The position numbers were made by a program, and so were the translations under genes. Positions 4,969 through 22,917 of a stretch of DNA of 64,000 nucleotides are shown in pieces. The stretch is from an uncultured Gammaproteobacteria bacterium (GTDB taxonomy: Bacteria; Pseudomonadota; Gammaproteobacteria; UBA6429; Thiohalophilaceae). The notes under the pieces were generated by a model. The model was not told the origin of the DNA. It made no database searches and worked only from the letters and a program-made list of their open reading frames with translations. Every line of letters begins with the position of its first letter. Positions within the stretch are counted from its first letter, which is position 1. The DNA is taken from the NCBI GenBank assembly GCA_913064945.1, contig CAJYAN010000010.1, positions 1-64,000 on the forward strand, written 5' to 3'.

Positions 4969-7320
4969 TTACATCGCCGTTTTATCTTGTTGTCCTGATT
5001 CAGATTCGTTCTCGGGCTCGGCCAGTAACTGTGATAGTACATAGCAACACAACACACCTATCGAGACGGTCTGCCCCATCGCCGCGAGTACCGGAATCCC
5101 GGCAAAGGCCAGCACGCCGAAGGCGGCCAGGGTCGACGCAGCGCTCATCATAACACCATGTGTACGCATGTTCAGATCCTGCTCACTGCCAAGAGGGCGA
5201 TTGAAAAACAGACTATAGTCGAGCCCCATGCCAACCACCAGAAGCAGTGACAGTATGTGAAATAACGTTAATTCTGTACCCATCAGCACCTGCAGACTAA
5301 TGGTCAGCAAAACGGCGAGTACAATCGGTAATACCACACGCCACATTTTTCTACTGGAACGCATCATCACTCCGACCACTACCGCAATAAAGACGATGCC
5401 AATCATTAGGCGAGCCAGCGCCGTTTGCTGGTAGGTCAGCATCAGCTCACTACTGGCGCTACGCATATTCAAATACTGCGCGGCTAACGCCGGCCGGTCG
5501 TTCAGCCACGCTTGAAAACGTTGTTGATCTGCGATGCCTGAGACACGCAGTACCGACATCCACTGCCCATGGCGCACAAACATCGCCTGTTTCACAACGG
5601 CGGCCAGGGGTGTTTGCTGCATGCCCTGCCAGGTCAACGGCCTGAGTGTTTTGCTGTGTTCAACGTCGCGGACAAAATCCTCAAAGGCCGTCTTTTTAAA
5701 TGGTAGCCCACGCATAGCCTCACTCAAGGCCGTCATCAGCCTGGCGTGATCCGGTAATTGCTGCTGCCGAAGTCGTTGTGTTTTCTGGCTCGGCAGGACA
5801 TCGCTCACGGCAAAGACATGTTTAACCAAACCCTCTGCCTGTGCCGACGCCAATACGGGCCTTAAGGCCTCGACTTTTTCCAGCACAGCCTCAGCGCTGG
5901 TGGCGGTGACAAAAAACGCATGGTCCATGCCCGGCACCGCCATCTGGGCCCGCAGATGCTGATCAAGCTGGCGTGCCGCCTCCGGCACCGGACTGAGGCT
6001 GGCGATATCCCGCGACCATAGCTGACTCGAATTCGTCACCAGAATTATCATGGGCAGGACTGTCCCGACAGCAATCAGGACGTATTTCAACCTGGCAGAA
6101 AACCGCAGGCTGCCAATCCTGATGGCCGCGTGGCGAAGACCGCCATCACCATGGCGTAACCAGGAGGGCACAATCCAGCGTGTCACCAGCAGGGCCGTCG
6201 TCAAACCGGTTATGGCAAATACCGCCAGCTGCGACAGACCGGCAAAACCCGTCCCCAGGAGCGCCACATAGGAGAAGGCGGTGGTGATCACACTCAAGCG
6301 CAGGGTCGGCCAAATCGAAAGCAGTGTCTGCCGCGGTGCCTCACACTGGTTAAGATGACTAAACAGATGCAACGGCATATCCAGGCAGACGCCGAGCAGG
6401 GTAATCCCGAAGGCAATTACGATACCGTGTACCTCGCCGAACAATATATTGGTCACCACCAACGCCGCTAGAATCGCCGAGGCCAGCGGCAGGCTGGCGA
6501 CAACAATAAATTTTAGCGAACGATAGGCCCAGATAAACAGTAGCAACATCAAGCCACCCGAAATCACGCTGAGATAACGCATACTCGACTGGATTGCCGC
6601 GCGTGTCGCCACCGCCATCGTCGCCGGTCCACTAATCTCGAGCCTGGCAGTACGGCCATCGGGCAAAGCCCGCAGGCGACTCTTCAACAGACTGATCGCC
6701 CTGTCCTGTTGGTCCAGATCAAAACCCCGTCCCGCCAGCGACACCAGCATCATCGCCCCCTGCTGTGTCCTGTCAAACCACACACCAAGATGGCGTGGCG
6801 GCTGTCCCTGCCGGTTCAACCTCGATAAATAATGTATAAAGTGATTTTGCGGATCCGACGTCAGCGTCTGCTGTAACACCAGGCCCATCCCGCTACTTAG
6901 ATCGGTTACTCTGTTTTTCAGTGCCGTACGCAGTTCCGGTGCTGAAAATCCCTGCGTCGTCATTAACAGATACCGATAGGCATACAGCTGGCGAAATTCA
7001 TTAGGCTGAAATTCCGCTTCACCGTTTTGTACGCTGGTAAACAAGTTGCTCTTTAACAGTGTCGATTTTAATTCCCGGCTCAGGTTTGCCGAAGTGACAT
7101 CATCTTTGCCCTGGATACGAATCATTAAGTAACGCGAGGCGGCGCCCTGCTGTATTTCACTCAATAAAATATTCAGCTGAGCATGCCGGGAGGTCTGCGG
7201 CATAAACTGACTTATATCCGAAACAACCTTACCTTGTGTATAAAAGTAGACGGCCCCCGCCAGGAGACAGGCCAACCAGATCAGATGGGTGATGAAATTG
7301 TTATTTGTTCTCGTGTTCAT
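4969..7320 (-). CDS. MMPL/RND-family lipid exporter (ApeN-like)
   Basis: This large inner-membrane protein of about 783 residues has two repeated halves. Each has an N-terminal transmembrane helix, a periplasmic domain and a bundle of helices, as in MMPL proteins. Charged and Gly motifs within the helices (for example GVCLDMPLHLFSH and GMGLDYSLFFNR) correspond to the proton-relay Asp region. In aryl-polyene loci this protein with the LolA-like partner is thought to move the polyene lipid to the outer membrane. The start is ambiguous: a GTG at 7344 or the ATG at 7320 inside the end of the LolA-like gene. The latter is used here. Confidence 0.85.
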   Translation of the reverse strand: MNTRTNNNFITHLIWLACLLAGAVYFYTQGKVVSDISQFMPQTSRHAQLNILLSEIQQGAASRYLMIRIQGKDDVTSANLSRELKSTLLKSNLFTSVQNGEAEFQPNEFRQLYAYRYLLMTTQGFSAPELRTALKNRVTDLSSGMGLVLQQTLTSDPQNHFIHYLSRLNRQGQPPRHLGVWFDRTQQGAMMLVSLAGRGFDLDQQDRAISLLKSRLRALPDGRTARLEISGPATMAVATRAAIQSSMRYLSVISGGLMLLLFIWAYRSLKFIVVASLPLASAILAALVVTNILFGEVHGIVIAFGITLLGVCLDMPLHLFSHLNQCEAPRQTLLSIWPTLRLSVITTAFSYVALLGTGFAGLSQLAVFAITGLTTALLVTRWIVPSWLRHGDGGLRHAAIRIGSLRFSARLKYVLIAVGTVLPMIILVTNSSQLWSRDIASLSPVPEAARQLDQHLRAQMAVPGMDHAFFVTATSAEAVLEKVEALRPVLASAQAEGLVKHVFAVSDVLPSQKTQRLRQQQLPDHARLMTALSEAMRGLPFKKTAFEDFVRDVEHSKTLRPLTWQGMQQTPLAAVVKQAMFVRHGQWMSVLRVSGIADQQRFQAWLNDRPALAAQYLNMRSASSELMLTYQQTALARLMIGIVFIAVVVGVMMRSSRKMWRVVLPIVLAVLLTISLQVLMGTELTLFHILSLLLVVGMGLDYSLFFNRPLGSEQDLNMRTHGVMMSAASTLAAFGVLAFAGIPVLAAMGQTVSIGVLCCYVLSQLLAEPENESESGQQDKTAM

Positions 7321-21571: not shown

Positions 21572-22225
21572 ATGAGTTTAGTCAGAAACCCCGCCCGTTA
21601 CGCGCAAGCCGAATTTCTGCTTAGTGTACCTCATCCCAGGCAGGCACCCCAAGATGAAGGTTTTGAGGTGGCGTTTGCCGGGCGCTCGAATGCGGGGAAG
21701 TCCAGTGCGCTCAATACCATTACCAGCCGTAAAGGACTGGCGCGCACCAGCAAGACTCCCGGACGTACCCAGCATCTGGTTTTTTTTCGTCTCGACGACC
21801 ATCGCCGCCTGGTTGACCTGCCGGGCTATGGTTTTGCCCGCGTCCCCGAGGCGATGAAGCTCAAGTGGCAACAGGCCATGCGAACCTATTTGACGGATCG
21901 ACAGGCCCTCAAGGGTCTCGTGCTCATTATGGATATTCGTCGCCAGCTGACTGATTTTGACCAGATACTGCTTGATTGGTGCATTCAGTACCAGCTTCCC
22001 GTCCATATCCTGCTGAGTAAGGCGGACAAACTAAAACGCGGGGCTGCCAAAAGTGCCCTGCTGAAAATGAAGCAAGACTTACAGGGCTATACGGGCATTA
22101 GTATTCAGCTGTTTTCCTCGCTCAAACGCGACGGCGTTGAAGAGGCCCAGCAAAAACTGGACGAGTGGTTACGCTGGGATGAGGTCATCGAGACTAGCGA
22201 GACTAGCGAGACTAGCGAACCGTAA
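21572..22225 (+). CDS. engB: Ribosome biogenesis GTP-binding protein EngB/YsxC
   Basis: The 217-residue small GTPase is needed for 50S subunit assembly. It has G1 GRSNAGKSS (near 37), G3 DLPGYG and G4 LSKADK. The ATG at 21572 is chosen because family members start [16 protein letters not shown]; a TTG at 21548 would add eight unneeded residues. The C-terminus ends [11 protein letters not shown], encoded by three copies of a 9-base unit (22191-22217). It is divergent from the cytochromes and converges on a candidate small RNA. Confidence 0.94.
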
Positions 22226-22238
22226 CTCAGACTAACAT

Positions 22239-22348
22239 AAAAAAAGCCCCGGTCCTGTGGGATTGAGAGGTGACTGGGGCTATAAGTTTCGACCCGGCCT
22301 GGGAGGCCGAATCACCACTGCCACCAGGGAGGGCGGGGCAGTAGCATT
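22239..22348 (-). ncRNA. Candidate Spot 42/ErsA/sX13-type regulatory sRNA
   Basis: On the minus strand three consecutive stem-loops can be drawn. An 8-bp stem is formed by 22337-22344 and 22315-22322; a 6-bp CGGCCT/AGGCCG stem with a CCC loop spans 22295-22309; a 10-bp terminator stem (22272-22281 with 22245-22254) is followed by seven Ts. All three loops show C-rich, anti-Shine-Dalgarno-like stretches (CCCTCCC, TCCCA, ACCTCTC). A TACAAT -10 box (22360-22355) would place the 5' end near 22348, giving about 110 bases. It converges on engB, as spf does on yihA in E. coli. It could instead be only the trmL terminator region. Confidence 0.62.
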
Positions 22349-22449
22349 AGTAATATTGTAATCCAATTATCTGATTATTCCACTCAGGTATTGTTAAGAA
22401 TTGTCAATTCTGGACGCGAGAGACGACAGGCCCTGTGGCGACACCCAGC

Positions 22450-22917
22450 TCAAACGCTCGCGCCCGCAAACCCCACTTGCCGCCAGGCCTCATAGAGGAC
22501 GACCGCGGCACAATTAGACAGGTTCATACTACGGTTATCCGCCTGCATGGGAAGACGCATCACGGAATCGGCACCCAGCTGCCCCCGAATCGCCTCTGGC
22601 AAGCCACGAGTCTCCGGACCCAATAAAAAGGCATCGCCCGCCTGATAGCGTTCATCATAAAAACTACGCCGTCCCTTGGTGGATAGCGCAAAAATTCGTG
22701 CTGGGCTAACCTTTTCAAGAAAGGCATCGAAGCTGTCGTGCTGCATAACCGCACTGTATTCACGATAATCGAGCCCCGCACGTCTCAACCGGGTATCATC
22801 CAGCTCAAATCCCAGGGGGTGAATTAAATGCAGGTAGGTACCCGTATTGGAACACAGGCGAATAATATTGCCTGTATTCGGCGGAATCTCGGGTTGATAC
22901 AGCACCAGATGAAACAC
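22450..22917 (-). CDS. trmL: tRNA (cytidine(34)-2'-O)-methyltransferase TrmL
   Basis: The 155-residue SPOUT methyltransferase modifies the wobble base of leucine tRNAs using SAM. The trefoil-knot motifs are all present: NTGNIIRLCSNTG near 15-27, GPETRGLPEAI near 100, and NLSNCAAVVLYEAWRQ at the end. The length is normal for TrmL. It is monocistronic or lies upstream of the candidate sRNA on the same strand. In the Spot 42/ErsA loci I know, polA occupies this position. Confidence 0.93.
   Translation of the reverse strand: MFHLVLYQPEIPPNTGNIIRLCSNTGTYLHLIHPLGFELDDTRLRRAGLDYREYSAVMQHDSFDAFLEKVSPARIFALSTKGRRSFYDERYQAGDAFLLGPETRGLPEAIRGQLGADSVMRLPMQADNRSMNLSNCAAVVLYEAWRQVGFAGASV

Follow-up and report, generated by a model that had tools for sequence, protein, structure and literature searches.

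A C-rich small RNA gene beside engB in a Thiohalophilaceae genome, with a promoter unlike that of its polA-side paralogue

The DNA analyzed here, referred to as the window, is a stretch of 64,000 nucleotides from an uncultured gammaproteobacterium of the family Thiohalophilaceae. Its plus strand carries engB (ysxC/yihA; 21572–22225), the convergent locus marker with an MMR_HSR1 domain, and its minus strand carries trmL (22450–22917), with a SpoU_methylase domain; the Pfam check covered only these two genes, and the names of the other neighbors were taken from translations. Between them, on the minus strand at 22239–22348, a small RNA gene of about 110 nt was delimited by a covariance model match and by its fold. 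Its 3′ end falls in a U7 run (22239–22245), a predicted intrinsic terminator that occupies the same place in relatives and lies 13 nt from the stop codon of the convergent engB. We call the gene E1, the engB-side unit of a pair in which P2 is the polA-side unit. The end of trmL lies about 100 nt upstream of E1 on the same strand, where relatives have P2 and polA. A sequence-only reading of this DNA had described an RNA converging on engB with trmL in the place of polA, and the coordinates and strands of both genes agree. From the order engB-c5-c4-dsbA that it also proposed, engB-c5-c4 stands, whereas cytochrome c4 does not directly adjoin dsbA, the order in the window being engB-c5-c4-resB-ccsA-dsbA. 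At the end of engB, just before the E1 terminator, GAGACTAGC occurs three times in tandem (22193–22222) and encodes a C-terminal ETS repeat.

The predicted RNA folds into three consecutive hairpins, each of whose helices covaries in relatives. Hairpin 1 (22314–22345, minus strand) presents the loop CCCUCCC at about 22333–22327; hairpin 2 (22291–22313) has an apical CCC within CCUCCCAGG, forming the loop (U)CCC(A); and hairpin 3 (22245–22281), the terminator stem, has the loop ACCUCUCAAUCCCACAG at about 22271–22255, with 96.9% of the cells of helix 3 paired in the alignment of relatives. The minimum free energy of E1 is −49.6 kcal/mol, compared with −35.8 ± 3.9 kcal/mol for dinucleotide shuffles (z = −3.55), and none of 200 shuffles was as good. 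A TACAAT −10 box lies at 22360–22355 on the minus strand, aligned with TACACT, TAGACT, and TAAGCT in relatives at an equal distance from an upstream repeat. It predicts an RNA start near 22348, a 5′ end that was placed from this box alone and that accords with the earlier placement of the box for an RNA of about 110 bases.

Plain BLAST of the RNA in relatives returned only short matches of low significance, and the search therefore relied on synteny and covariance models. The first model, R1, derives from an alignment of 11 P2 RNAs found in relatives, with a hand-set structure, and includes neither sequence from the window's genome nor any E1 unit. Its sole match in the 64-kb window is full length, at 22347–22240 on the minus strand (42.6 bits, E = 4.8e-10). 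Because R1 was built without this genome and matches E1 only, E1 is more than a chance resemblance. Over 46 loci, R1 yielded 69 matches, and in the resulting alignment of 65 distinct rows all 24 model pairs show double-sided, compensatory changes, with 92.3% of the cells paired. The covariation score of this alignment was 0.584, against 0.197 when shuffled and at most 0.106 with partners slid, figures that lean upward because the alignment was fitted to the model. RNAalifold, applied to a mixed MAFFT alignment, recovered only 8 pairs, as variable loops shift the stems. On comparative evidence, the E1 of the window is a real RNA gene, and the three minus-strand stem-loops with C-rich loops and a seven-T terminator, as originally drawn, are borne out by both the fold and the R1 match.

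A match to engB was found in all 40 genomes of the window's GTDB family. In most of these relatives, engB is followed by two minus-strand RNA units and, beyond them, by a convergent polA whose 3′ end was recognized from the C-terminal codons. When 38 units with a CCUCCC-like first loop were folded singly, nearly all formed three hairpins, mostly with C-rich loops; about a dozen further E1 units keep the terminator and a C-rich loop, with hairpins 1 and 2 degenerate. In such degenerate units (among them L032, L034, L040, L041, L045, L046, L049, L055, and L071), the upstream repeat is conserved, as is a terminator loop containing multiple CCC runs (CCCCACATCCCAACCCC or a similar sequence), and these units possibly constitute a second functional type. 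Other variations of the locus include a doubled E1 beside engB, giving three RNAs (E1, E1′, and P2) in L048 (G026:C25), and a single genome (G018) in which engB is present twice, with an E1-type unit after each copy (L056 and L070).

A second model, R2, was built from 43 sequences, the window RNA among them. Across the whole genome to which the window belongs, it marks exactly two strong places, C10:22240–22347 (minus) and C10:122139–122250 (plus), the third-best place scoring 22.3 bits. The second place, about 100 kb from E1, is the P2 sister (71.8 bits with R2; fold z = −7.8). It is found about 1 kb downstream of polA, beyond a gene for a 140-aa membrane protein, and converges on a gpsA-like gene; against the Rfam anti-hemB model it scores 27.8 bits (cut-off 49.5). 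Judged from these sequences, the window RNA is E1, the engB-side paralogue of the tandem pair. We infer from gene order that the polA-P2-E1-engB block was split by a rearrangement in this genome, which would account for the presence of trmL upstream of E1.

The two paralogues differ in their promoters. Upstream of the P2 sister lies GAACTT-N15-GTCTCA, a 9/9 match to the sigmaE pattern, and a GAACTT-type −35 with a GTC-type −10 and a 15-nt spacer precedes 24 of 25 P2 units. The full 9/9 pattern occurs at 20 of 25 P2 units and at 0 of 27 E1 units, compared with 0.2% of shuffled sequence; at the window RNA, a search for GAACTT-N15-GTC reached 6/9, which is chance level. The P2 promoter therefore resembles a sigmaE/AlgU promoter in its sequence. 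Across the whole genome the pattern showed no enrichment (24 occurrences versus 25 in the reversed control), so that it is position and conservation that support the promoter assignment. E1 units carry instead a 17-bp direct repeat (for example, TTTAACAATGTTTAACA or ATTTACAAAGGTTCACA), found 31–32 nt before the −10 box in 21 of 24 units with the intervening DNA diverged; these distances come from an automatic pick in which ties favor 31, and a few of the −10 picks are doubtful. The repeat of the window, ATTGACAATTCTTAACA (22392–22408, minus strand), is a probable activator site centered about 52 bp before the predicted start and, as in relatives, 31 nt before the −10 box. With a weight matrix derived from the relatives' boxes, it ranks first among the 127,968 positions of the window. 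The runner-up, at 5272 (minus), falls within a coding frame and was dismissed as chance. A direct repeat of about 10-bp spacing near −52, combined with a weak −35, is suggestive of an OmpR/CpxR-type activator.

This arrangement bears on whether E1 has a promoter of its own. With the end of the same-strand gene trmL a mere 100 nt or so upstream, the element could mainly be a trmL terminator or 3′ UTR, or could derive from that 3′ UTR by RNA processing. We consider this improbable: the conserved repeat and −10 box stand between trmL and the RNA, with the spacing seen in relatives that have another gene or RNA upstream, and the two stable hairpins with their loops ahead of the terminator covary as well. 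To the same small extent, E1 might be a degenerating copy of P2 that has lost any separate function, as the degenerate hairpins 1 and 2 of several relatives and the lower scores of E1 units under the P2-trained model would suggest. However, the E1 promoter element is kept across many genera, even in units with degenerate hairpins 1 and 2; E1 has itself been duplicated in L048; and the window copy retains all three C-rich loops.

We thus favor, with good though not complete confidence, the explanation that E1 is an independent gene for a C-rich, three-hairpin small RNA, the engB-side paralogue of the pair, driven by an activator through the upstream repeat and blocking translation by an anti-Shine–Dalgarno mechanism. 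What can be read from the sequences is the locus, the fold and its conservation, the pair of paralogues, and the existence of two promoter types; transcription, regulator, targets, and repression are what we infer beyond them. E1 would be transcribed independently, as its own small RNA gene, and switched on by a transcription factor that recognizes the direct repeat, with its 10-bp spacing, near −52; a signal different from that of P2 would thereby produce a similar RNA. Its CCUCCC-like loops would then pair with the G-rich Shine–Dalgarno regions of several mRNAs and block their translation. Known RNAs offer precedents, since sX13 uses its C-rich loops to repress mRNAs that bear G-rich motifs close to the start codon (PMC3771888), and the ribosome site of ntrB is blocked by NfeR1, an RNA with three anti-SD loops (PMC10746234). 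Pairing of the E1 loops with G-rich ribosome-binding sites is most likely by this analogy. In the window's own genome, the pattern AGGGAGG-N3-12-ATG occurs 24 times, compared with 6 for the reversed pattern; ribosome sites are G-rich in any case, so this is no proof, and the signal could be ordinary ribosome-site bias. Candidate targets whose reading frame is plausible include several exported proteins, a DUF302 protein, and two regulators, one an OmpR-type response regulator and the other of the Fis type. C-rich small RNAs with multiple identical loops can also bind proteins or other RNAs, and Hfq is encoded in this genome, as is RpoE. A role mainly as a sponge, in which the C-rich loops titrate Hfq or another RNA or protein rather than pair with mRNAs, is nevertheless very improbable, as the characterized C-rich relatives act on mRNAs (PMC3771888, PMC10746234) and sX13 works without Hfq.

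No Rfam family reached its gathering cut-off in the window, and the sub-cut-off matches of ar14, sX13, ErsA, and anti-hemB all fall on E1, on the same strand. Anti-hemB, or Burkholderia RNA 7 (RF02837), is known in B. cenocepacia as the transcript ncS04 (PMC5688073). It shares C-rich hairpins and a U-rich terminator with the window RNA, and the places found with its model lie beside engB and polA in L201–L203. R1, which contains no window sequence, matches three anti-hemB members above the cut-off (E = 4.8e-10 to 2.6e-14), whereas the window RNA scores 16.4 bits with the anti-hemB model (cut-off 49.5) and has a different promoter. ErsA (Pseudomon-1, RF01719) lies in the polA-engB intergenic region (PMC8575079) under a sigma22-dependent promoter (PMC7565897), and sX13 (RF02232) is located after polA (PMC3771888). 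Both true RNAs are matched at polA by R1 and R2, ErsA with E = 1.6e-5 and 8.5e-7, respectively, and three true sX13 members by R1 with E = 1.1e-4 to 2.7e-3. The window RNA shares C-rich loops with ErsA, whose sigmaE-type promoter is like that of the P2 sister, and, by its fold, the three stems with three C-rich loops of sX13. In contrast, it scores 17.2 bits with the ErsA model and 19.5 bits with the sX13 model (cut-offs 50); it lacks a sigmaE promoter and has trmL rather than polA upstream, unlike ErsA, and it lies at engB, whereas sX13 lies at polA.

The best Rfam score of the window RNA, 29.1 bits (E = 7.6e-4, full length), was obtained with ar14/NfeR1 (RF02344), an RNA of three hairpins with anti-SD motifs (PMC10746234). 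This remains below the cut-off of 58.8, and the loops of E1 differ from one another instead of repeating three identical CCUCCUCCC motifs; the likeness to the alphaproteobacterial ar14 is perhaps only convergent. Spot 42 shares the gene neighborhood (polA-spf-yihA). The kinship to it that had been proposed from the sequence is rejected, as the E. coli spf locus scores only 14.2 bits with R2 (E = 0.12) and the Rfam search gave no Spot 42 match in the window. The broader proposal of an unannotated C-rich small RNA of the polA/engB locus is upheld by covariation, synteny, a conserved promoter element, and models that recognize ErsA, sX13, and anti-hemB, whereas strict Rfam membership of ErsA or sX13 is not. 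By its sequence relationships, the window RNA is a variant of the ErsA/sX13/anti-hemB kind.

To place this kind of RNA more widely, 369 genomes across the GTDB class Gammaproteobacteria were searched, and R2 found the family in 167 of them. The 29 best new R2 loci represent 22 families, and engB and/or polA is the neighbor at 26 of them. A sigmaE-type promoter of at least 8/9 is present at 26 of the 29 and of 9/9 at 18, compared with 6.9% and 0.3% of shuffles, and R2 itself carried no gene or promoter information. The Rfam cut-offs were reached by 2 of 20 class loci, both anti-hemB; the Rfam anti-hemB model finds many of the places of R2, yet exceeds its cut-off in only 20 of the 369 genomes. 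Measured against this engB-polA family as defined by R1 and R2, the window RNA has the model match and the adjacency to engB, but not the usual, though non-universal, sigmaE promoter. Tandem copies elsewhere have a sigmaE-type promoter of their own in 31 of 35 cases, and none attains a score in the range of genuine E1 boxes, so that among the genomes sampled the E1 promoter is peculiar to the family of the window. Multiple copies of the RNA, three to five per array, occur in L248 (G300:C3:217200–218700), L209 (G209:C33), and L247 (G316:C8), with five tandem copies in L248, and nearly every copy in these arrays has its own sigmaE-type promoter. At a locus in another family (L194, G327:C5), the RNA is immediately preceded by trmL, past which lies engB, and the sigmaE-type promoter is retained.

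We lean toward the view that Gammaproteobacteria, including betaproteobacteria, possess an ancient, sigmaE-driven anti-SD small RNA at engB-polA that often multiplies in tandem, of which ErsA and anti-hemB would be local versions bearing separate names and E1 a copy rewired in the Thiohalophilus-related family. New in this work are the link across the class and the exchange of promoters between paralogues; in the open-access literature, no paper on either was found, and earlier work may exist in subscription papers, most of which lay outside this scope. The sX13 study did not settle whether RNAs of this sort are encoded at polA in other bacteria too, or whether they act alike (PMC3771888). The family model answers the presence part of that question for many gammaproteobacterial families, links RNAs that Rfam lists separately, and indicates that sigmaE control is shared. 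The window RNA appears to be a natural example in which a single RNA body has come under two different promoters, an arrangement open to direct testing. If this view is correct, the organism would hold two similar RNAs under two promoters, and the window RNA would have moved from envelope stress to another signal.
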